The notes under the pieces: model-generated
Told to the model about the DNA's origin: nothing
The model's database searches: none
What the model saw: the letters and a program-made list of their open reading frames with translations, nothing else
Translations under genes and position numbers: made by a program
Shown here: piece after piece, positions 46,370 to 61,703 of the stretch
Layout: every line of letters starts with the position of its first letter
Position numbering within the stretch: the stretch's first letter is position 1
NCBI GenBank assembly: GCA_944389145.1
Contig: CALXLH010000023.1
Location: 1 to 64,000 of the forward strand
Length of the DNA: 64,000 bases
Direction: 5' to 3'
Source: an uncultured Spirochaetaceae bacterium
GTDB taxonomy: Bacteria; Spirochaetota; Spirochaetia; Sphaerochaetales; Sphaerochaetaceae

Positions 46370-47482
46370 TCAGTTGACGTGGATGCTGCCGGTAAGCTTG
46401 CCGACAAGCCTGTCCACGCCCTCCTCGCTCATTCCATGTGCGACAAGATAGGACCTGGCCGCACCGCTCAGGTCAGCGGTAGCAGGATCCTCGCCTCCGG
46501 TGATGACAGGAAGCATGGCCGCGATATTGTTCTCAAAGATGAACTGATACTTCCTTGCATCGGTCTCCTCGGTCACGCCATAGTAATTTGCCATCGAGAG
46601 CATGAAGTCATCCACGATCTCATCATAGCTTCCTCCAAGAAGGCACTCGAAGAGAGCTGAGACGAATCCAGCCCTGTCCTTTCCCTCCGTGCAGTGGATC
46701 AGATACGGAGGATCAAGCTCTGAGAGCTCCTCGATACCGGCGGCAAGCCTGTTGCCGAAATCATCGGAAAGGAAATCCACGGACAGGCCGAGGGCGAGGA
46801 CCTTGCCATCCTCATAAAGGGAGGCATAGTACTCTGAATCAAAGTCATCGGCTGCGATATAGCTCTCGATATCCTCATTGGTATCCGCAAGGTTCAGGAC
46901 ACCGTTGATGCCTGCAGCCTCTGCGAAGGCATTGGCGTAATGAGCCCTGTTATGCTCGTTGTTTATCGGGGAAGCGGAGCGATAGAGGATTCCCGGTGCC
47001 GCGATATCGCCCATATAGATCTCGCGGAAGTTCGCGAACTGGGCATTGGAGCGGAAGTCGGCACGATCGCTGGAATACTCAAGGGAGTTAAGCTCATACT
47101 CCTCGATCATTCCCTCCTTCTCATCCATGGTGATCGTCACGCCATCACCTACGCCGACGCCTGCGATCTCGTTGATGCGTCCGAAGTTCACACATACCGC
47201 GATATTCGTATCCCCGGGATACGCCCTAAGCACAGGCTCGCCCACTCCGACATAGTAGCCGCTGAAGTACGGGATACCCTCAAGTGTGTAGCCGTTGCTG
47301 AATACGACATTCACCGTATCTCCAAGGTCGTAGCCGGCCTGAGAGGCTTCCTCTATCGTGATATCAAGAAGGGCGTGCCCATACTTCTCGATCTCGATGA
47401 TATTCCCCTCAAGCGTCTCCGCTGCGAAGAGCGTCGCCAGCGACAGAAGCGCCACGAGGATGATAAGCATTGTTCTTTTCAT
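46370..47482 (-). CDS. Secreted PTP-like phosphatase with a SAM-hydroxide-adenosyltransferase-like N-terminal part
   Basis: The ATG at 47482 is preceded by GGAGG at a spacing of five bases and gives a signal peptide (MKRTMLIILVALLSLATLFAA). Residues about 25-125 (IIEIEKYGHALLDITI, LGDTVNVVFSNG) resemble the C-terminal beta domain of SAM hydroxide adenosyltransferases. The second half is a cysteine-dependent phosphatase of the tyrosine_phosphatase_3 type, with P-loop HCTEGKDRAG and ILYRSASP upstream. The target (phosphoprotein, phosphoinositide or inositol phosphate) cannot be told. It is periplasmic or extracellular by its signal. Confidence 0.82.
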   Translation of the reverse strand: MKRTMLIILVALLSLATLFAAETLEGNIIEIEKYGHALLDITIEEASQAGYDLGDTVNVVFSNGYTLEGIPYFSGYYVGVGEPVLRAYPGDTNIAVCVNFGRINEIAGVGVGDGVTITMDEKEGMIEEYELNSLEYSSDRADFRSNAQFANFREIYMGDIAAPGILYRSASPINNEHNRAHYANAFAEAAGINGVLNLADTNEDIESYIAADDFDSEYYASLYEDGKVLALGLSVDFLSDDFGNRLAAGIEELSELDPPYLIHCTEGKDRAGFVSALFECLLGGSYDEIVDDFMLSMANYYGVTEETDARKYQFIFENNIAAMLPVITGGEDPATADLSGAARSYLVAHGMSEEGVDRLVGKLTGSIHVN

Positions 47483-47620
47483 GAGAACCTCCATGCAGAA
47501 CTTAACATGGATTTAACATTAGCACAACATTTACCCATCTTCAGGCAACTGTCTCAAAACACCATCCAGGAAGAGATGAGATGCCTTACGCTCCAGGCCG
47601 GCATGCCTATAGATGTCCGC

Positions 47621-48742
47621 TCAGAACCTGCAGACAGTCTCGGGGTTGATCCTTATGCCATCCTGGCTGACGGAGAAGAGGATCGCGCTGCTTCCATAGT
47701 AGCTGCTGCTCGTACCGATCGTACCGATGGCATCCCCTTCATCCACTTCGCTGCCCGCAGATACAAGTATCCTCTCAAGACCCGTGTATCTGGTAGCATA
47801 GCCATCGTCATGGACAAGCTCGACATAGCGGCGCCTGTCAGGCGTAAAGCCGACGCTCTCCACTGTACCGGATGCAGAAGCAGTGACAGGAGTGCCTGGC
47901 CTTGCGGCAATCACGACTCCATGGATCGTCTCGCCCTTCTCCCTGAAGTACTCAGCGTTATGCATGAGTATCGTTCCGCCTGATACAGGAGAGGAGAATC
48001 TCGGCATACCCTCTATCTCAGATCCGCTTACAGGAATGAAGATCCTCGTTCCCTCGGGAACGGATGTCGATCCGAGCGAATTGAGCTTCGCTATATCCGC
48101 GGCACTCAGCTCAGGGTTATAGCGGCTGACAACATCGCTGAGATCATCTCCTGGCTTCATCACATAAACGATACCGCTATACCGAGGTATAAGGAGCGTA
48201 TCGCCTACAGCGATGGAATTATCGCTCATGGCGTTGAAATCGATGATAGTCTCAGGCGTTATATCATAGGCAGAGGCGATGGACTGAAGGGTATCGCCAT
48301 CCTGCACGATATACTCAGAGGGGACCATGGGCTTGACGGCGGACTCGAGGACGGACTCTTCTATCAGAGGCTCATCAGCAGCTGCAGGAGCTTCCTCCTC
48401 TTCGATAACGGCTGCCTCTGCCTCGGAAGCCTCCTCGACAGCTGCAACCGGCTCGGTATCGGCAGGAACGGGAACCTCTTCCTCGACCGTGATCTCAACA
48501 GGATCCCGGGTGATGCTGGACTCAAGGACCGCCGGCTCAGGAACCTCGACCTCTACGGTGCTTGCTCCGCCACCCGCTTCCTCCGGCGCGGCCTGATGCG
48601 GAGTGTAGAGAAGATATAGGACTATCGCGATGAGAGTGAGGAGTATGCCGACGAACGCTATCACGAACGTTCCACGGCGACCGCCCTCGCGGCGTTCCCT
48701 GTACCCTTCTGGCGGCATATCATCGTAACTATATCTTCCCAT
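47621..48742 (-). CDS. Membrane-anchored LysM protein with a degenerate M23 peptidase domain
   Basis: A short cytoplasmic start is followed by one membrane helix (about residues 25-46) and a long Glu/Ala/Val-rich spacer. Two LysM domains follow (about 143-186 and 192-237), then an M23-like domain (about 245-365). In active M23 enzymes zinc is held by His in H-x-G-x-D, by that Asp, and by His in H-x-H. Here the motifs read HGVVIAA (Asp lost), YTGL for Y-x-H-L, and AILFSV in place of H-x-H, so it should be inactive. Inactive relatives (EnvC, NlpD) act as scaffolds or amidase activators. It is divergent from the PBP-like gene. Confidence 0.85.
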   Translation of the reverse strand: MGRYSYDDMPPEGYRERREGGRRGTFVIAFVGILLTLIAIVLYLLYTPHQAAPEEAGGGASTVEVEVPEPAVLESSITRDPVEITVEEEVPVPADTEPVAAVEEASEAEAAVIEEEEAPAAADEPLIEESVLESAVKPMVPSEYIVQDGDTLQSIASAYDITPETIIDFNAMSDNSIAVGDTLLIPRYSGIVYVMKPGDDLSDVVSRYNPELSAADIAKLNSLGSTSVPEGTRIFIPVSGSEIEGMPRFSSPVSGGTILMHNAEYFREKGETIHGVVIAARPGTPVTASASGTVESVGFTPDRRRYVELVHDDGYATRYTGLERILVSAGSEVDEGDAIGTIGTSSSYYGSSAILFSVSQDGIRINPETVCRF

Positions 48743-48783: not shown

Positions 48784-49665
48784 ATGATGCAGAAAGGCAA
48801 TAAGCATGGTGTGGTGACCGCCTATATGATAGTCATCATACTTGCCACAGCAACGCTGCTGCGCTTCACATACCTAACCTTCGTCGAAGGAAGCCGGCCT
48901 CGCTATCACGATCCGCTGCTCTCCGAGGTCCTGGTCAGGGGTTCCATATATGACAGGGATGGCAGCCTTCTGGCAATCCAGGCCCCTGATTACGGATTTG
49001 AGATAACGCTCTCGGAATCCTCTCCCTCATACATCGCATCGGTACTTTCTCGCTATACGCCAGAGCCTGCGGTAAGCCTTGAATCAAGGATAAGGAACGG
49101 CGAAGGATTCATAATGATCCCATCCATTCCCTCGATCCCAGAGATGGGTGAGATCAGGGGAGAGCTTGATGACCTGGGTCTCTCGGACGAGGTACGCCTC
49201 ACTACCCGGGAGACAAGGAAGTATCCTTCCTATCAGGAGACATGGAATATCATCGGGGGCGTTGATCAGAGGCTTTCCGGGGTATCGGGACTGGAGAGGA
49301 TATTCGATGATTCCCTCACTCCCCGCCCCTCTCCATTCGAACGCATAGCACGAGGAAAGGACCTGACGCTCACTATCGACCTGGAAGCACAGAAGGCGAT
49401 GATGGAGATGATGCAGGAGATCGGATACGGAGGGGCTGCCGCCCTGATTGCCCCAGACGGCTCTATCGCGGCCTGGACAGGCGGTCCGGACGAGACCGTG
49501 CTGAGGGCTCTCGTGACATCCGAGTCCTCTGGATACAGCGAGGAGGATGCCCATCCGGCCCTCCCCTTCGAAGAGGATGGCCTCATACCGCTCAAGGAGG
49601 GGTTCAGGCTCTATGCCGATGATAAGGAAAGCCTCTCAGCGCTCCTTCCTGAGCTGGCTCTCTGA
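48784..49665 (+). CDS. FtsI/PBP2-like protein without a transpeptidase domain
   Basis: The 293-residue product has one N-terminal membrane helix (about 12-30) and the class-B PBP pedestal or dimerisation domain. The hallmark RGSIYDRDGSLLA occurs at residues 52-64, and GGVDQRLSGVSGLERIFDDSL, KDLTLTIDLEAQKAMME and AAALIAPDGSIAAW appear in order. The region that should carry the catalytic Ser-x-x-Lys, Ser-x-Asn and Lys-Thr-Gly boxes is absent. After AAW only about 50 unrelated residues follow before the stop. It cannot cross-link peptidoglycan. It may still act as a divisome scaffold. Its 3' end overlaps the convergent flhF gene by 30 bases. Confidence 0.85.
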   Translation: MMQKGNKHGVVTAYMIVIILATATLLRFTYLTFVEGSRPRYHDPLLSEVLVRGSIYDRDGSLLAIQAPDYGFEITLSESSPSYIASVLSRYTPEPAVSLESRIRNGEGFIMIPSIPSIPEMGEIRGELDDLGLSDEVRLTTRETRKYPSYQETWNIIGGVDQRLSGVSGLERIFDDSLTPRPSPFERIARGKDLTLTIDLEAQKAMMEMMQEIGYGGAAALIAPDGSIAAWTGGPDETVLRALVTSESSGYSEEDAHPALPFEEDGLIPLKEGFRLYADDKESLSALLPELAL

Positions 49666-50721
49666 GTTCCTCATCACAAGCCCCATTCCCTTCAGGTGAT
49701 CAAGAAGCGCCGACGAAGAGGCCTTCTCTATATCCTCAGGAACCTTCTGCCCATCGGTAAGGAAGATGATCGGAGAGGAAACCCTGTAGGCAAATGATAT
49801 GACATTGCCGATCGTCTCGGTCTCATCGAGCTTGGTCACTGCCAGCGACGGCTTGCCGAATCTGGAATAGACGGAATGCTGCTCAAGCATATCCTCCTCC
49901 TTCATCGTCGCAGGAATCGTCATTATCAGATCGGTCCTGTCAGGGCCAAGGAGCGAGAGCATCGATGTAAGGCGGAGCGTCAGCTCCTTATCCTTCGGAG
50001 AGGTGCCCATCGTATCGACGAAAACGATATCCTTGTCCTGGAAGAGCTCTGCCGCCGCGATAAGCTCATCCTCTGCACCAGCCTTGAGCACAGGAATCGA
50101 CAAGGCGTCTCCGAACGCCTTCACCTGCTCGTATGCCCCTACACGGTATGTATCGAGGGTGATGATGGCAACGTGGCGCCCCTGGCTGGCATAGACATAC
50201 GCCGCCTTGGCAAGGGTCGTAGTCTTTCCGGAGCCCGTAGGTCCGATGAATGCCACGAAATGCCTCGGATGCACCTGATGCTCATAATCGATCGCAACGG
50301 CATGGAGCAGCCTGTCAGAAAGCTCAAGCCCCGGATCCTTATCCGGGGGGAACGCCTCAAGAAGCCTTGAGCGCAGCGGATCAGCAATATGATTCAGGTC
50401 GAGAAGCACCACGGCCTTCTCATTCTCCCTGTATATCTCCGTATCGAGCCGCTCCTTGCTGGATAGGGTGGCAGGATCAGGAGTCCTCGCTTCCTTCTCG
50501 AACTCCCTGATATCCCTATCCCTGCTTGCCGGCCTTTCCTTCGCCTGGGGCCTGGGAGATGAATAGCAGATGATCTCGCAGCGCTTCTGACGGCGCGTGA
50601 AGAATCCGCCTCCCTTCGTGAAATCCCTGCGGGAATGTATGCGTATGTCATCCCCGTAAAGCTCCTTGGCCTTCTTCACGGCCGCTTCATAGCTGTCCGC
50701 CACTACCGTATAGTATTCCAT
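49636..50721 (-). CDS. flhF: FlhF-like SRP-family GTPase
   Basis: An N-terminal basic region (MEYYTVVADSYEAAVKKAKE... IHSRRDFTKGGGFF) typical of FlhF is followed by a linker and an NG-type GTPase. Motifs seen are G1 GPTGSGKTT (160-168), DTYRVGAYEQVKAFGDAL, G3 DTMGTSPKD (236-244, where the usual DTAGR Arg is missing) and G4 TKLDET. FlhF places polar flagella and promotes flagellar assembly. No flagellar gene lies in the window, and the gene ends a cell-division/protease operon. It may serve a non-flagellar role if the organism is non-motile. Confidence 0.87.
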   Translation of the reverse strand: MEYYTVVADSYEAAVKKAKELYGDDIRIHSRRDFTKGGGFFTRRQKRCEIICYSSPRPQAKERPASRDRDIREFEKEARTPDPATLSSKERLDTEIYRENEKAVVLLDLNHIADPLRSRLLEAFPPDKDPGLELSDRLLHAVAIDYEHQVHPRHFVAFIGPTGSGKTTTLAKAAYVYASQGRHVAIITLDTYRVGAYEQVKAFGDALSIPVLKAGAEDELIAAAELFQDKDIVFVDTMGTSPKDKELTLRLTSMLSLLGPDRTDLIMTIPATMKEEDMLEQHSVYSRFGKPSLAVTKLDETETIGNVISFAYRVSSPIIFLTDGQKVPEDIEKASSSALLDHLKGMGLVMRNSESQLRKER

Positions 50722-54946: not shown

Positions 54947-55850
54947 CGTCCCCTTCTCCCAGAGGAGAATACCTGTCGAAGAAGGCAAGGATCGAGGATG
55001 TATCGAGATGGGTATAGATCTGGGTGGTGCGCACGTCGCTATGCCCAAGCATCTCCTGCACGCTCCTTATATCCGCGCCATGCTCTATCATATGGGTCGC
55101 GAACGAATGGCGCAGGGTATGTATGGTGGCATCGATGCCAAGCTTACCCACGGCCTCATGGAAACGCTTATGGGCAGCCTGTCGGGTGAGCCTTCCGCCC
55201 CTCCTGTTGAGGAACATCGCGCTCTCCCTGTCATTCTTCGCAAGACGCGGCCTGATATTCTCCAGATAGCTGTCCAGCGCCCCTGCCGCGATCTCGCCGA
55301 TGAATACGAGGCGCTCCTTATCGCGCTTGCCTATGACGGCTATCGTACGCTCATCGTGGTGGTAGGAGGAGACATCAAGCGCCACCGCCTCGGATATCCT
55401 CATGCCAGATGAGTAGATAAGCTCGAAAAGCGTGTAATCGCGCTCCGATAGTATATCATCGGATGGGAAGGAGGCAAGAAGCTCATCCACATCCTCCTCG
55501 CTGATTACGCGCGGGAGATGCACGCCGTCCTTGGGCTTCTCGACAAGGGATGCAGGATTCCTCTCCGTCAGCTTCCGCGATAGCAGGAAGGAATAGAATG
55601 ACCTCAGCGATGAGAGTATCCTTCCCTCAGTCCTCTCATCGATACCGTCATTGCGCCGCCTCGATATCAGATAGCCCTCTATCTCGGCGACGCCTGCATC
55701 GGAGAGGGAAGCAGAGGAATCGGCAAGATACGAAAGATACCGTGCCGCCTCCGCAGAATAAGCCTCCCGGGTCTTGTCCGAGAGGCGGCGTTCGAATGTC
55801 AGGCAGTCAGCGAACTCCCTCAGGAGTCCCTGATCCTCATTCCTCATCAT
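54933..55850 (-). CDS. xerD: Tyrosine recombinase XerD-type
   Basis: The catalytic set is complete: SSGMRISEAVAL (Arg), VIGKRDKERLV (Lys), [12 protein letters not shown] (His-x-x-Arg), LGHSDVRTTQIYTHL (His and Tyr). The 305-residue length and N-terminal core-binding domain are standard. It probably works with XerC (52.6-53.5 kb) in dimer resolution. It overlaps ftsZ by 14 bases, linking chromosome resolution to division at the level of the operon. Confidence 0.93.
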   Translation of the reverse strand: MMRNEDQGLLREFADCLTFERRLSDKTREAYSAEAARYLSYLADSSASLSDAGVAEIEGYLISRRRNDGIDERTEGRILSSLRSFYSFLLSRKLTERNPASLVEKPKDGVHLPRVISEEDVDELLASFPSDDILSERDYTLFELIYSSGMRISEAVALDVSSYHHDERTIAVIGKRDKERLVFIGEIAAGALDSYLENIRPRLAKNDRESAMFLNRRGGRLTRQAAHKRFHEAVGKLGIDATIHTLRHSFATHMIEHGADIRSVQEMLGHSDVRTTQIYTHLDTSSILAFFDRYSPLGEGDDGIS

Positions 55851-57102
55851 CGTGGCGTGAGTACCTCAGCACCGCAGGGATAGAATAGTCGCTCTGGCTG
55901 GAGCCGCGCTTTCCAAGCTGCATCTGCAGATCCTGCCATCTGTTGACCGTGATCGTCGCAGGATCCGAACCCTGCTTCTCCGGAGCCTTAGGCTTCGCCT
56001 CGCTCTCCTTCTCATGCTGCGGCGCCATCGCGGCGGCGGCCGCTGCAGCCTTCTCCTGAGGCTCCTCACGACGGCGGAAGATCTCGGTATCAGGCTCGAT
56101 GGAGACAGAGGCCTGCCTCTCCTCGAAACCGGTCGCGACGACCGTTACCTTTATCCTGTCGCCAAGGGACTGGTTATAGCTCTGCCCGGCGATGATGAGC
56201 GCATCCTCCGCGCAGTTCTCCGTGATAAGCTCAACCACATCCTGATACTCCTGGAGCGTAAGATCATCTCCGCCCGCAAGATTGACGAGAACCGACTTGG
56301 CGCCATCGATGCTGGCATTCTCAAGAAGAGGATTGGATATCGCGAGCCTGGCTGCATCGACAGCCCTGTTCGCCCCCTCTCCGAATCCCAGTCCTATGAG
56401 CGCATCGCCCTTACCCTTCATGACGGTCTTCACGTCAGCGAAGTCTATGTTGATCTCACCGGGCTCGGTGATGAGATCCGATATTCCCTGGACAGACTGA
56501 AGCAGGGCGCTATCAGCGATAAGGAATGCCTGCTTGATCGGCGTATTGTTCTCTACGACCTTGAGCAGATGCTGGTTAGGGATGAGTATAAGGGTATCGA
56601 CCTGCTTGCGGAGCTTCTCTATGCCCTGCTGGGCCAGAAGCAGCTTCTTCTTGCCCTCGAAGGCGAATGGAGTCGTGACGACAGCTACGGTAAGCGCGCC
56701 GCATGACTTCGCGATCTCCGCTACCACCGCCGCGGCTCCCGTTCCCGTTCCGCCTCCCATTCCGGCGGTGATGAAGATCATGTCAGAGTTCTCAAGCTCT
56801 GCCTTGATCTCCTCCTTGGACTCAAGCGCCGCCTTCTCTCCGATCTCCGGCACGCCTCCGGCTCCCAGGCCTCCGGTAAGCTCCTTGCCGATCGCTATCC
56901 TGGTCTGTGCATTGGAGCGCTGCAGCGCCTGGACATCGGTATTGAGCGCTACGAACGAGACCTTCCTGAGGCCTGACGCGATCATCCTGTTGACAGCGTT
57001 CCCTCCGCCGCCGCCTACCCCTACGACCTTGATTATCGTCGGAGCGGCCTCCTCTGCCGCAGTTGCATCCTCGATGTCGAAAATGTCAAAATCCATACCC
57101 AT
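55837..57102 (-). CDS. ftsZ: Cell division GTPase FtsZ
   Basis: The start at 57102 (MGMDFDIFDIED) follows AGAGGTG and lies ten bases after the ftsA stop. The longer reading from 57168 runs back into ftsA. The tubulin-like motifs are GVGGGGGNAVNRM, the GTP-binding GMGGGTGTGAA and NIDFADVKTVM. A variable linker is rich in Ala, Glu and Lys, and the conserved C-terminal peptide (DYSIPAVLRYSR) binds FtsA. At 421 residues it is slightly long because of the linker. It forms the Z-ring. Confidence 0.98.
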   Translation of the reverse strand: MGMDFDIFDIEDATAAEEAAPTIIKVVGVGGGGGNAVNRMIASGLRKVSFVALNTDVQALQRSNAQTRIAIGKELTGGLGAGGVPEIGEKAALESKEEIKAELENSDMIFITAGMGGGTGTGAAAVVAEIAKSCGALTVAVVTTPFAFEGKKKLLLAQQGIEKLRKQVDTLILIPNQHLLKVVENNTPIKQAFLIADSALLQSVQGISDLITEPGEINIDFADVKTVMKGKGDALIGLGFGEGANRAVDAARLAISNPLLENASIDGAKSVLVNLAGGDDLTLQEYQDVVELITENCAEDALIIAGQSYNQSLGDRIKVTVVATGFEERQASVSIEPDTEIFRRREEPQEKAAAAAAAMAPQHEKESEAKPKAPEKQGSDPATITVNRWQDLQMQLGKRGSSQSDYSIPAVLRYSRHDDEE

Positions 57103-57112
57103 CTTGCACCTC

Positions 57113-58345
57113 TCAAAATAGCTTTCCAAAGAAATTCCTGACCTTGCCCCCGATTCCCTTCTTGTCATTGGGACTCTGGCTGAGCGTCGGATTCTCCCTA
57201 TACTTCTTTGCCTCGATCCTCAGCAGCCCCAGAAGCGTCGAGTACCTGGGATCTATATACATCCTGTCAAGACCGTTTATCGCCTCAGGAAAGCCAATGC
57301 GCGCAGGTATCCTGAATATCTCGGAGGCAAGCTCCGTCGCACCGGAAAGCAGCGCACCGCCGCCAACCAGGATGATACCAGCGCCGAATGACCCGGCGAT
57401 CTCGTTCTTCTCAAGCTCTCCGGAGAGCATGGAGAAGATCTCCGCCATCCTTGGCTCTATCAGCTTCGCAAGCTCCTTCCGAGGAAGCCTGATGGACGGC
57501 TTGCCGCCGACGGCAGGCGTTACCACCATCTCAGAGTCGGGGATGGACGGAGTATGGCAGCATCCGTCGGATATCTTCAGCGATTCCGCAGCTGCCCTCG
57601 GTATCTGCAGCATGTATGCGATATCCCCGGTGACATTATCGCCGCCAAGCGGGATTCCTCCGCAGTAGACCGGAGCGCCGCCGACATAGGCGATCGCGTT
57701 GGTAGTACCCGATCCGATGTTTATTATCAGGGCGCCCATATCACGCTCATCCGGGGCAAGGACGACCTCGCTGTCCGCAAGGCTCTGCAGCACCATCCTC
57801 TGTACCTGCAGCCCGGCCTTCTGGACGCACTTGCGAAGATTCTGGCAGATCGATGACGAGCCGGTGACAAGCAGGACGCTGGTATCAAGCCGGTGGCCGA
57901 GCATATCTATCGGATCCTTTATGCCAGAGCGTGAATCCACCTGGAAATCCTGGACAAGCGTATGGATGATCTCAGTATCCTTAGGCAGCTCACGCGCCCT
58001 CGCGACATCGATCGATCTCCTTATATCCTCCCTCTTGATCTCCTGATCCTTGCTCTGGATACCGACGACGCCCGATGACTGGATTCCCCTTATATGATCG
58101 CCGCCGATGCCGAGTATCAGGGATGAGACCTCGCTTCCGGCCTGCAGCTCCGCATCGGAGATGACAGCATTTATGACCTTCAGGGTCTGCTCTATATTGA
58201 CGATAGATCCGGATCTTACGCCATCGCTGGCACGTTCCGCTATCGCCTCGATCATCAGCTGTCCGTCGCGAGAGACCGAGCCGATCGCCGCCCTCACCCA
58301 GCTTGTGCCTATATCAAGTCCAACAAGAGTCTTATCAGAAACCAA
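57113..58345 (-). CDS. ftsA: Cell division protein FtsA
   Basis: The start codon is TTG at 58345, close after the ftsQ-like stop, with AGGG upstream. The actin-like ATPase motifs are GLDIGTSWVRAAIG at the N-terminus, INIGSGTTNAIAYVGG and GIILVGGGALLSG. A C-terminal amphipathic membrane helix (KGIGGKVRNFFGKLF) anchors FtsZ filaments. At 410 residues it is normal. The 1C domain is present. It directly precedes ftsZ. Confidence 0.97.
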   Translation of the reverse strand: MVSDKTLVGLDIGTSWVRAAIGSVSRDGQLMIEAIAERASDGVRSGSIVNIEQTLKVINAVISDAELQAGSEVSSLILGIGGDHIRGIQSSGVVGIQSKDQEIKREDIRRSIDVARARELPKDTEIIHTLVQDFQVDSRSGIKDPIDMLGHRLDTSVLLVTGSSSICQNLRKCVQKAGLQVQRMVLQSLADSEVVLAPDERDMGALIINIGSGTTNAIAYVGGAPVYCGGIPLGGDNVTGDIAYMLQIPRAAAESLKISDGCCHTPSIPDSEMVVTPAVGGKPSIRLPRKELAKLIEPRMAEIFSMLSGELEKNEIAGSFGAGIILVGGGALLSGATELASEIFRIPARIGFPEAINGLDRMYIDPRYSTLLGLLRIEAKKYRENPTLSQSPNDKKGIGGKVRNFFGKLF

Positions 58346-58349
58346 CGCC

Positions 58350-58907
58350 CTACCCCTTCATACCTATGGAGAGCATATCCGCGCTCTCACTATATACATT
58401 ATCATCAATAGCCTCAGGGGTGGAAGATGCAGCCGCCTGAGCCGCTCCCCTCAGCACATCGAAATCAAAGCCGAAGAGCCTGTAGTACTCCATGGCCTCT
58501 TCGCTGATGATGGCCGCCGGATATACCTTCATCAGAGAAGGAAGATCGTCAAGGCTGACAGATGCAGAACCATCATCGAAGACAAGGACAGCATCGGATG
58601 GAGCAAGGGCAAGGACCCCACCATCGCGGAAGCCGAGATCCATCATCATGCCGCCATCGGCAAATGTCGATGAGACATAGTCGATATAATACAGCCGCGA
58701 GATCAGGGCCTCTGACCTCAGCCTCTCCTGTGATAGATAAGGCAGCCCCTTCAGGGGAAGGGAAAGCCGATACACGGAGGCAGTCGGCTGCATGGAGTAG
58801 CTGATCCTGTCTATGCGCGTCGTACCGATATAAGGAAGGGAGAGCGCCAGCGCGATGCCAAGCAGCAGCAGGACGGCGGCGGAGGCCTTCAGCTCAGGAT
58901 GCCTCAT
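58350..58907 (-). CDS. ftsQ: FtsQ/DivIB-position membrane protein (divergent)
   Basis: The 185-residue protein has one N-terminal membrane helix (about residues 8-26) and an extracytoplasmic part. That part contains a POTRA-like beginning (RLSLPLKGLPYLSQERLRSEALI) and a DivIB-like core (ALAPSDAVLVFDDGSASVSL). Assignment rests mainly on its place between ftsW and ftsA and its topology. It is shorter than usual FtsQ (about 250-280). It would bridge early and late divisome proteins. It overlaps ftsW by 14 bases. Confidence 0.7.
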   Translation of the reverse strand: MRHPELKASAAVLLLLGIALALSLPYIGTTRIDRISYSMQPTASVYRLSLPLKGLPYLSQERLRSEALISRLYYIDYVSSTFADGGMMMDLGFRDGGVLALAPSDAVLVFDDGSASVSLDDLPSLMKVYPAAIISEEAMEYYRLFGFDFDVLRGAAQAAASSTPEAIDDNVYSESADMLSIGMKG

Positions 58908-60075
58908 GAGCTTCCCTCCCCATCATATAGACCAGGCGATAGAGCATCACGGAAGAGAGTATCGTCATGGCCTCCTCCGAAAGCGAATAGCTGAAGAACG
59001 GCATCAGGATTCCCGGCAGGGGAAGAAGGCCTGATACATAGAGCATGTTGCATAGCGCCTTCAGGACGACCATGAGCGTCAATCCGAAGGCAAGCGAGGC
59101 TGACTTCTCCCTTTCCATCCCCATCCCTCTCTTCGAGGTCCTTATGCCGATGATCAGGAAGAGAACGAACATCAGCACCACGAAAGATGCCCCGGCGAGC
59201 CCAAGCTCCTCCACGAACACGGAAAAGATGAACTGGCTCTCAGGACTTGGCAGGACTCCGAGCTTATATACGCTGGACCCCAGCCCTAGCCCTGCGATCC
59301 CTCCGTCCGCTATCGCATTGACGGAAGCCGTGAGAGCCGCATCATAGAGCGATGGATCGGAAACAGGAAGCACGGATGAGAAGAGAGGAGAGAGCAGGGT
59401 CGGGAACAGCATTGGAAGGGCTCCTCCTGTGACAAGCATGAAGAGAAGGACCAGCAGAAGCGGGATCTTCCCCACCGAGCGCCGGCGCAGCAGGAGCAGG
59501 GTAAGCACCGATGAGAGGAGGTACCACGATATCCCTCCGGCAAGGAGAGAGAGGACAAGGAGCAATGCCGTGAACAGAGAGGAGAGGACGATCTTCAATC
59601 CCCTTCTCTCAGCCTCATCCTTCTCTGGCAGCAGGCAGGAAACGGTGAATATGATCCCCAGCAGCGCGACAGACGGGGCCTGGATGATCCTATAGCCTCC
59701 GATGACAAGGCTGGTGCCGTATGAGAAGCCTGGAATAAGCTGGAGGACGAGAAGTGCCAGGGAGAGAGGGATGAAGAGAAGATATCCCCGTTCCAGGGCG
59801 CTCCTGGGTATCAGGGTGAAAACGGCGCCGACGGCAAGGGAGACTGCGGCGACTATCGCCTGCCTCATGAAGAACCAGTAATGGGGCAATCCCAGATCGA
59901 CAGCCTTTGCGTATGACGCCGAATAGAGAGAGACAAGTCCCATGAGCGTAAGCACAAGGGAGATGCACAGGAACGTGAAAGGAGAAAAAGAGCCGGATGA
60001 ATCCTTCCGGCCCCCTTCTGCCTTGTATGTGATATCGTCGTAGCTTCTTTCAGAGATCAGGCGCGGCATAGTCAT
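58894..60075 (-). CDS. ftsW: FtsW-like SEDS protein lacking the catalytic aspartate
   Basis: The 393-residue protein has about ten membrane helices in SEDS order. The tenth-loop motif of FtsW normally reads LPEAHTDFIFAVIAEELG, whose Asp (Asp297 in E. coli) is essential for glycan polymerisation. Here it reads LPSPESQFIFSVFVEELG (275-292), with Gln281 at that place. The usual G-A-R-R-W-I...F-Q-P-S-E is GGYRIIQAPSVA. The protein is therefore a SEDS relative unlikely to make glycan strands. A perfect TATAAT (60078-60083, minus) lies just before its start and may be an internal promoter. Confidence 0.9.
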   Translation of the reverse strand: MTMPRLISERSYDDITYKAEGGRKDSSGSFSPFTFLCISLVLTLMGLVSLYSASYAKAVDLGLPHYWFFMRQAIVAAVSLAVGAVFTLIPRSALERGYLLFIPLSLALLVLQLIPGFSYGTSLVIGGYRIIQAPSVALLGIIFTVSCLLPEKDEAERRGLKIVLSSLFTALLLVLSLLAGGISWYLLSSVLTLLLLRRRSVGKIPLLLVLLFMLVTGGALPMLFPTLLSPLFSSVLPVSDPSLYDAALTASVNAIADGGIAGLGLGSSVYKLGVLPSPESQFIFSVFVEELGLAGASFVVLMFVLFLIIGIRTSKRGMGMEREKSASLAFGLTLMVVLKALCNMLYVSGLLPLPGILMPFFSYSLSEEAMTILSSVMLYRLVYMMGREAHEAS

Positions 60076-60099
60076 GGATTATACACGACAGGCGCCTCT

Positions 60100-60351
60100 T
60101 CAAATAGATGCGCTGAGCAGGAAATCTCCCTCAGCTTCCGGCAGGCCCGCCGCAACGGCTGCCCTGAGGGCCCTGCCTTCCCTATCCACATCGGTCATAT
60201 CAGCCTTGACGATCATCTCCGGATCCGATGTGCTCCGGGAGCCGATCTGCCATAGGGGAATCAGGGTAACGATGAAGATAAGCGATAGCATCGCAACGAT
60301 AAGGCACTTTACCGGCATCGTGATATTCCTGCTGACTTCCAGATCCTTCAT
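60100..60351 (-). CDS. ftsL: FtsL-position small membrane protein
   Basis: The 83-residue protein has a short cytoplasmic start, one membrane helix (MPVKCLIVAMLSLIFIVTLIPL) and a short external tail. Its place between rsmH and ftsW is where ftsL sits in dcw clusters. The external part lacks a leucine-zipper-like coiled coil, so the assignment depends on position and topology. FtsL normally links FtsQ/FtsB with FtsW/FtsI. Confidence 0.6.
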   Translation of the reverse strand: MKDLEVSRNITMPVKCLIVAMLSLIFIVTLIPLWQIGSRSTSDPEMIVKADMTDVDREGRALRAAVAAGLPEAEGDFLLSASI

Positions 60352-60363
60352 AATGCAAACCTC

Positions 60364-61254
60364 TTATATCCTTTCCACTACCCTTAGCTTCGCGCTGCGA
60401 GAAGGCGTGTTCTCTTCCTCTTCTTCCTGCGACGGCACGATAGGCTTCCTGGTGATGATGCGGATCTCGGCATCATCCTTTGCCGCCTCGTCCTTGAAGA
60501 ACCATTTCACTATCCTGTCTTCAAGGGAGTGGAAGGTAATCACTGCTATCCTTCCACCCCTCTTGACGACCTTGATAGCACTCCTCAAGGCTGGTTCGAT
60601 CCTAGAGAGTTCCCCATTGACTTCGATCCTCAAAGCCTGGAACGTCCGGGTTGCCGGGTGGATGCGCCCATATCTATACTCGCGCGGTACGGCTCGGGAG
60701 ATTATCTCCGCAAGCTCTGAGGAAAGCTCGATCTCCTTTTCCTGACGTCTCTCCACTATGGCCCGTGAGATCCGTCTGGAGTATCGTTCCTCCCCGTAGC
60801 GGTATATGACATCGGCCAGGGCCTCCTCCGAGTATCCATTGACTATGTCGGCTGCGCTTATCCCCTCGTCGGGATTGAGACGCATATCAAGCTTCTCATC
60901 GCGGCGGAAGGAGAATCCCCTCTCGCTCTCAAGATAATGAAACATGCTTATCCCAAGATCGAAGAGGATCGCATCAGCGCTGTCCGGTTTCGCCGACGCC
61001 AGGTATTCATCGAATGAGCATAGGACAGGGGTGAAACGGTCTCCGAACGGGCTAAGGCGCTCGATGGCCTTCCTCTGGATCACCCTGTCCCTGTCCAGCC
61101 CGATGACCCGCAGGTCAGGATACTTCGACAGGAAGAGCGACGTATGGCCACCCTCACCTGTGGTGCAGTCGATGAGGAGAGCTTGTCCCGAGGGGATCGG
61201 AAGGCTCTCAAGGACCTCTCTATGCATCACAGGATAATGGACGGCTTCCATCAC
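60364..61254 (-). CDS. rsmH: 16S rRNA (cytosine(1402)-N4)-methyltransferase RsmH (MraW)
   Basis: RsmH methylates C1402 of 16S rRNA in the ribosomal decoding site. The protein opens HYPVMHREVLESLPIPSG and has the SAM-binding DCTTGEGGHTSLFL, IGLDRDRVI, DAILFDLGISMFHYL, and the C-terminal GRIAVITFHSLEDRIVKWFF. At 296 residues it is normal. It overlaps mraZ by four bases (ATGA) and ends 12 bases before the ftsL-like gene. Confidence 0.97.
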   Translation of the reverse strand: MMEAVHYPVMHREVLESLPIPSGQALLIDCTTGEGGHTSLFLSKYPDLRVIGLDRDRVIQRKAIERLSPFGDRFTPVLCSFDEYLASAKPDSADAILFDLGISMFHYLESERGFSFRRDEKLDMRLNPDEGISAADIVNGYSEEALADVIYRYGEERYSRRISRAIVERRQEKEIELSSELAEIISRAVPREYRYGRIHPATRTFQALRIEVNGELSRIEPALRSAIKVVKRGGRIAVITFHSLEDRIVKWFFKDEAAKDDAEIRIITRKPIVPSQEEEEENTPSRSAKLRVVERI

Positions 61255-61703
61255 TCCTTCTCCTCATAAAGGCTCTGTGCCAGATCCGCGATCGACTCGT
61301 CAGCCTCGAATGCCTCATAGACATCGGGATTCCAGATCTCGACCGCGTAGCCAGTGCCCACGAGAAGAGCCTCTCCCTTGTTAGGCAGGGAAAAGGCCTC
61401 CCTGTCCTTCAAGGGAATATTGATCCTTCCAGAGCTGTCGATGTCGATATACTGCGCCGGTGATATGAGCTTTCTGATAAGGATGCGTTTCTTCTTATCG
61501 AGCATAGCCATTGGGGATGAGAGAATAGGCCCGGAAAACTCCTTCTCAAAATACTCAGGCGTCATCAGCATCAGATGATTTCCATCCAGTCCTGGAAGAA
61601 CTACTACAGTCTCGGATGAGAGCGCCGTGCGGAGCCTTGAAGGCAGGGAAAGACGACCCTTGTCGTCAAACCTTGCATTATAGACTCCTGTCAACAGCTG
61701 CAT
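61251..61703 (-). CDS. mraZ: Transcriptional regulator MraZ
   Basis: Two AbrB-like swapped-hairpin repeats are visible over 150 residues: NARFDDKGRLSLPSRLRTAL and QYIDIDSSGRINIPLKDREA. MraZ forms octamers or dodecamers and represses its own dcw operon by binding repeated TGG-containing boxes upstream. Such boxes with 10-bp periodicity are visible at 61708-61763. GGTGG precedes the ATG. It is first gene of the long division operon. Confidence 0.96.
   Translation of the reverse strand: MQLLTGVYNARFDDKGRLSLPSRLRTALSSETVVVLPGLDGNHLMLMTPEYFEKEFSGPILSSPMAMLDKKKRILIRKLISPAQYIDIDSSGRINIPLKDREAFSLPNKGEALLVGTGYAVEIWNPDVYEAFEADESIADLAQSLYEEKE

Follow-up and report, generated by a model that had tools for sequence, protein, structure and literature searches.

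The usual explanation for the retention of FtsW and FtsI is that they make septal peptidoglycan. The locus described here raises the question of what an FtsI is kept for when its catalytic part is gone. It lies in the window, by which we mean the whole stretch of 64,000 nucleotides analyzed, from a 2.1 Mb, 95% complete 'Candidatus Ornithospirochaeta'-type MAG of the Sphaerochaetaceae (genome G000). We infer that the genus is Candidatus Ornithospirochaeta, a spirochaete genus whose name was found among related loci. For comparison, 139 genomes of the family were sorted genus by genus: 14 genera (66 genomes) count as walled and eight (73 genomes) as wall-less, namely g1, which is the window's, g3, g4, g8, g14, g18, g21 and g22, 'wall-less' being predicted from genes throughout.

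A gutted FtsI at the ftsI locus

The open reading frame in question is closed by a normal TGA stop, and its 3' end overlaps that of the convergent flhF gene (49636-50721, minus strand). Two parts of a class B PBP of the FtsI type, the N-terminal membrane helix and the PBP_dimer pedestal, are present (Table 1), while the transpeptidase domain is absent and none of its SxxK, SxN and KTG boxes is found in the protein. Orthology to the FtsI proteins of relatives is upheld by position (synteny) as well as by sequence (hhalign, E=1e-39). By both measures the frame is a catalytically gutted FtsI orthologue. The first-pass annotation had already recognized the membrane helix and pedestal, the missing boxes, and the normal stop next to the end of flhF on the other strand, from which it excluded a simple frameshift; all of this was borne out. 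Its description of a protein reduced to the pedestal is only partly correct: the pedestal is intact and the boxes are gone, but the protein runs on into the transpeptidase fold, of which it keeps the first ~45 residues and probably also the final strands and helix.

Table 1 Features of the window around the gutted FtsI and the division gene cluster
Feature	Position	Strand	Evidence
Gutted FtsI orthologue, 293 aa + stop	48784..49665	+	PF03717 25.1 bits (cut-off 24.4); relatives in 125/139 family genomes; no catalytic box
Membrane helix, residues 7-35	48802..48888	+	AlphaFold2 model
Pedestal, residues ~46-190	48919..49353	+	PF03717 match residues 52-161; hhalign against full FtsI
Retained start of transpeptidase fold (first helix + two strands), residues ~191-235	49354..49488	+	hhalign through residue 232; PDB PBP matches with residues 186-293
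C-terminal tail, residues ~236-293, probable remnant of last strands + helix of transpeptidase fold	49489..49662	+	Whole-model structural alignment; sequence support only in second clade
LysM/M23-like protein, divergent neighbour of gutted FtsI, zinc ligands missing	47621..48742	-	PF01476 + PF01551; alignment
FtsZ	55837..57168	-	Sequence + synteny
FtsA	57113..58345	-	TIGR01174 385 bits
FtsQ	58350..58907	-	Position; iterative profile, 56/60 loci
FtsW pseudo-enzyme	58894..60075	-	TIGR02614 149 bits (cut-off 337.5); catalytic set lost
Junction where murF + mraY lie in walled relatives	60076..60099	.	Synteny of 60 loci
FtsL	60100..60351	-	Position; iterative profile, 50/60 loci
RsmH	60364..61254	-	Sequence + synteny
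MraZ	61251..61703	-	Sequence + synteny

Could the short frame be an artefact of assembly or a frameshift? The wall-less genomes appear to be MAGs, which would invite such an explanation, but the same architecture recurs in dozens of assemblies, several of them more than 95% complete, with the convergent flhF alongside. The 36 orthologues fetched from relatives, a comparison proposed by the first-pass annotation, show it too, which excludes both a break in the assembly and a local frameshift. With the architecture conserved across assemblies, we rule this explanation out for all practical purposes.

Mapping of 60 loci revealed the gene order MraZ-RsmH-FtsL-MurF-MraY-FtsW-FtsQ-FtsA-FtsZ in walled relatives and, some kilobases away, FlhF convergent with FtsI and an M23/LysM gene divergent from it. 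In the window's genus this order is kept minus MurF and MraY, and the gutted protein occupies the place of FtsI. Iterative profiles recover FtsL and FtsQ in walled and wall-less groups. FtsB was not clearly identified in these searches; one weak candidate of the FtsB/DivIC kind (L131:1459-1761, plus strand), which has a membrane helix and a coiled coil, stays below the cut-off, and archaeal controls match likewise. The degenerate M23 protein was discarded as a sign that the wall is gone, since the zinc ligands are missing in walled relatives too, and its degeneracy therefore predates the loss. The flhF frame encodes an FlhF-type GTPase, which members of the family retain next to hslUV whether they are walled or wall-less; known members of the family have no flagella. 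The gene at 46370-47494 (minus strand) encodes a member of the tyrosine phosphatase family whose N-terminal part weakly matches SAM-hydroxide adenosyltransferase-like proteins.

Predicted loss of peptidoglycan synthesis

The search of G000 for any transpeptidase-domain protein, likewise proposed by the first-pass annotation, returned no match to PF00905. There is also no YkuD (L,D-transpeptidase) domain, no MraY/WecA and no Amidase_3 in this genome, and its sole Mur-ligase-type protein is FolC (TIGR01499, 284 bits). An Omp85/BamA-type protein is present, and the cell is therefore probably diderm. Bacteria classed as peptidoglycan-negative (PGn) have lost most lipid II pathway genes; in G000, MraY, the Mur ligases and a strong MurJ match are absent, MurA, MurB and MurG lying outside the search. 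From these genes we predict that the window's lineage has lost peptidoglycan synthesis, a statement that stays at the level of prediction because the wall-less genomes appear to be MAGs. This background was missing from the first-pass annotation.

The family survey draws the same line. PF00905 occurs in 59 of 66 walled genomes and in none of the 73 wall-less ones, MraY exceeds the cut-off in 62/66 and 0/73, respectively (one wall-less genome has a match below the cut-off), and sets of Mur ligases are confined to walled genomes. One wall-less genome carries a single strong Mur-ligase-type match (G132:C62:3437-4000, E=6e-47), which may stem from contamination or transfer. An alternative crosslinker was considered and rejected, G000 having no YkuD protein; the two found in the family, one in walled G006 and one in wall-less G118, are similar lipoproteins that were probably transferred and are probably unrelated to the wall (L136:1518-2252, minus strand; L138:1870-2613, plus strand).

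Despite their lack of MraY and Mur ligases, genomes G036, G049, G054, G060, G065, G068 and G072 of the window's genus encode a MurJ-like protein that is full-length but matches weakly (E 1e-17 to 1e-22). Together with the restriction of the search noted above for MurA, MurB and MurG, it is what would speak for cells that still make a peptidoglycan-like polymer with unrecognized enzymes, aided by the FtsW-FtsI pair. This is very improbable, given that MraY, Mur ligases and YkuD proteins are all missing and that the active site of FtsW is lost, as described next.

FtsW as a putative pseudo-enzyme with conserved FtsI contacts

The FtsW of the window is homologous to SEDS proteins over the whole domain (PF01098, E=2.2e-36). 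At the positions of D297, W138 and R243 of Escherichia coli FtsW it has Q, a gap and L, i.e., the catalytic residues of the SEDS glycosyltransferase are absent. Complete FtsW copies of walled genomes match with E values of ~1e-75 to 1e-92, those of wall-less genomes with ~1e-7 to 1e-45. A mutational study of E. coli FtsW lists residues whose change kills the protein while binding of FtsI persists (PMC8765783). Eleven of the listed catalytic positions are invariant in walled relatives and were scored for retention. On average they are retained at 16% in the window's genus and at 18% in the remaining wall-less genera, compared with 53% for other positions invariant in walled relatives (permutation p of 0.0015 and 0.0047); R137 and W138 are gaps in all wall-less proteins. 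Retained are the glycines 274, 278, 280 and 282 of ECL4 as well as E306 and G308 adjoining TM8, and in the FtsWIQBL structure the FtsI-contact regions of FtsW are TM8, TM9 and ECL4 (PMC7614612). Judged from these aligned positions, FtsW of wall-less members has lost its active site yet kept the regions that contact FtsI.

The same data bear on a role of FtsW-FtsI elsewhere in the envelope, for example in signalling or in the transport of lipids or glycans, for which the pair could have been recruited independently of division. FtsW keeps a membrane transporter-like fold, the gutted FtsI keeps a periplasmic head and the LysM/M23 neighbour persists; on the other hand, synteny with FtsQ, FtsL, FtsA and FtsZ is maintained and so are the FtsI-contact regions of FtsW, and we consider such a recruitment unlikely.

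What is left of the transpeptidase domain

In profile comparison, the window family aligns with full FtsI beyond the pedestal up to residue 232 (hhalign, E=1e-39), so that the match also takes in the helix and strands with which the transpeptidase fold begins. Residues 186-293, used as a profile by themselves, match PBP chains in the PDB (E=2e-6). In the second wall-less lineage, the C-terminal tail can be recognized by sequence as the terminal part of the transpeptidase domain (E=2e-5, small set). There, sequence comparison thus indicates that the catalytic middle of the domain was deleted and that its end was not cut off. The tail of the proteins from the window's genus has diverged too far for the sequence test that worked in the second lineage. 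The AlphaFold2 model of the window protein (pLDDT 86.5) aligns with whole PBP chains over residues 46-293, up to the C-terminal end (best Z 14.6, 172 residues, rmsd 2.9), and by this model the tail probably corresponds to the strands and helix that close the transpeptidase fold. When the C-terminal domain is folded alone, pLDDT drops to 72.8, and the structures matched, all weakly (Z up to 6), include Rag/roadblock, profilin and GAF folds besides PBPs.

The transpeptidase domain of Pseudomonas aeruginosa FtsI contacts FtsL, FtsB and FtsQ through R226, Y229 and R233 near its start, through R551, N554 and P556-P557 at its end and, in addition, through P477-G478 (PMC7614612). The retained ends of the fold match the contact sites R226-R233 and R551-P557. 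Because of this correspondence the remnant may, by analogy, be a docking platform for FtsL and FtsQ.

Purifying selection and two origins

The gutted FtsI is under purifying selection, with dN/dS values of 0.08-0.17 for nine pairs from both clades, dS being saturated in several, and it evolves faster than FtsA and FtsZ. The first-pass annotation had stated that its reading would fall if relatives showed no such selection. The protein finds a relative in 125 of the 139 family genomes and is retained in 44 of 48 genomes of the window's genus. The four others (G030, G037, G043 and G071) have a match for FtsW but none for the window protein, and in genus g22 neither FtsW nor the gutted FtsI was detected. 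The joint absence in g22 fits a joint function of the pair; at the same time, the complex is therefore not indispensable everywhere.

Decaying relics, that is, a functionless FtsW and FtsI slowly being lost after the wall genes had gone, would account for the situation in g22 and for the very short length of some of the proteins (L082, 236 aa). Against such decay speak the low dN/dS in both clades, the lack of stops within the matches, the degree of retention in the window's genus and the conservation of the FtsW contact positions, and we rate it as quite improbable.

Trees built on FtsA, FtsZ, RsmH and MraZ (FastTree and SH-aLRT) divide the wall-less genomes between two clades, one being the window's genus, beside the walled genus g2, and the other the remainder, near g7 and g10. 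The latter two are long rows whose exact place in the tree is uncertain. Holding all wall-less genomes in one clade was rejected (delta lnL 180, p-AU 1.7e-8), which rules out a single origin. The wall-less state thus arose at least twice. Since long branches would pull fast-evolving rows together, the separation into two clades is if anything conservative.

Two genomes of walled genus g2, G004 and G006, keep MurF, MraY and FtsW with its catalytic set, and their FtsI proteins (472 and 478 aa) have lost SxxK, the SxN block and KTG. In each genome the only FtsI (L134:1446-2864, minus strand, in G004; L135:1708-3144, plus strand, in G006) lacks all three boxes. Going by their gene content, these organisms may make uncrosslinked peptidoglycan. 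A dead FtsI alongside retained mur genes indicates that loss of crosslinking can precede loss of the wall.

A proposed chemistry-free divisome complex

What, then, is the gutted FtsI kept for? We propose, with a probability of about 0.7, that it is the periplasmic half of a chemistry-free FtsQ-FtsL-FtsW-FtsI divisome complex that assembles and serves division. Its membrane helix and pedestal would pair with the pseudo-enzyme FtsW via TM8-TM9 and loop ECL4, the contact regions that are conserved in FtsW. The leftover transpeptidase core would keep the surfaces where FtsL and FtsQ dock in known divisomes, and the complex would relay or stabilize constriction driven by FtsZ and FtsA. The first-pass annotation had suggested a scaffold-only FtsI partner for an inactive FtsW. 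This agrees with the lost catalytic residues and kept contact regions of FtsW, with a genome devoid of transpeptidase domains and with a reduced architecture that is conserved and under purifying selection; it needs amendment in that the protein still has part of the transpeptidase fold, and that it acts as a scaffold is our inference.

That a dead FtsW and FtsI are kept after apparent wall loss suggests a second job of the division complex that needs no wall chemistry. At slightly better than even odds, FtsW-FtsI has an important chemistry-independent function in division, and the two lineages that lost the wall have exposed a relay, allosteric or mechanical, that links the periplasm to the FtsZ/FtsA ring and was kept by selection. 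A natural lineage that has FtsW and FtsI after predicted wall loss, apparently twice independently, offers a direct way to part structural role from chemistry, and the gutted FtsI shows which parts of the transpeptidase fold stay under selection without catalysis.

Comparison with known systems

No precedent for a retained pseudo-FtsW with a gutted FtsI was found in the open-access literature. With FtsI/PBP3 of the FtsWIQBL core (PMC7614612, PDB 8bh1) the window protein shares the membrane helix, the pedestal, the neighbours FtsQ and FtsL, presumably the pairing with FtsW and, probably, those portions of the transpeptidase fold by which FtsL, FtsB and FtsQ are contacted. It differs in lacking the boxes and most of the transpeptidase domain, in the lost active site of its FtsW and in that no substrate pathway was found. 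The FtsI proteins of walled Sphaerochaetaceae (Sphaerochaeta-type genera and g2) occupy the same locus, with flhF convergent and LysM/M23 divergent; unlike the window protein, the full-length ones have 537-560 aa and intact boxes, and their genomes contain mur genes and mraY. Sphaerochaeta and Bullifex porci lack several PBPs and keep the mur genes, and muropeptides of B. porci have been measured (PMC7738495).

Loss of the peptidoglycan synthesis pathway, predicted here from genes, is shared with peptidoglycan-negative bacteria (PGn of PMC8406291; Mycoplasma genitalium, PMC8475190). Those bacteria, however, have also lost SEDS and class B PBP genes, as a survey of closed genomes found for PGn bacteria (PMC8406291), and some intracellular groups have lost FtsI and FtsW together (PMC10591338), whereas most wall-less genomes of this family retain both in reduced form. 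A further parallel may be drawn to dominant-negative mutants of E. coli FtsW (PMC8765783), in which the dead protein is still found at midcell and binds and recruits FtsI. Those are laboratory mutants of a walled cell to which the dead protein is toxic, in contrast to the pair described here.
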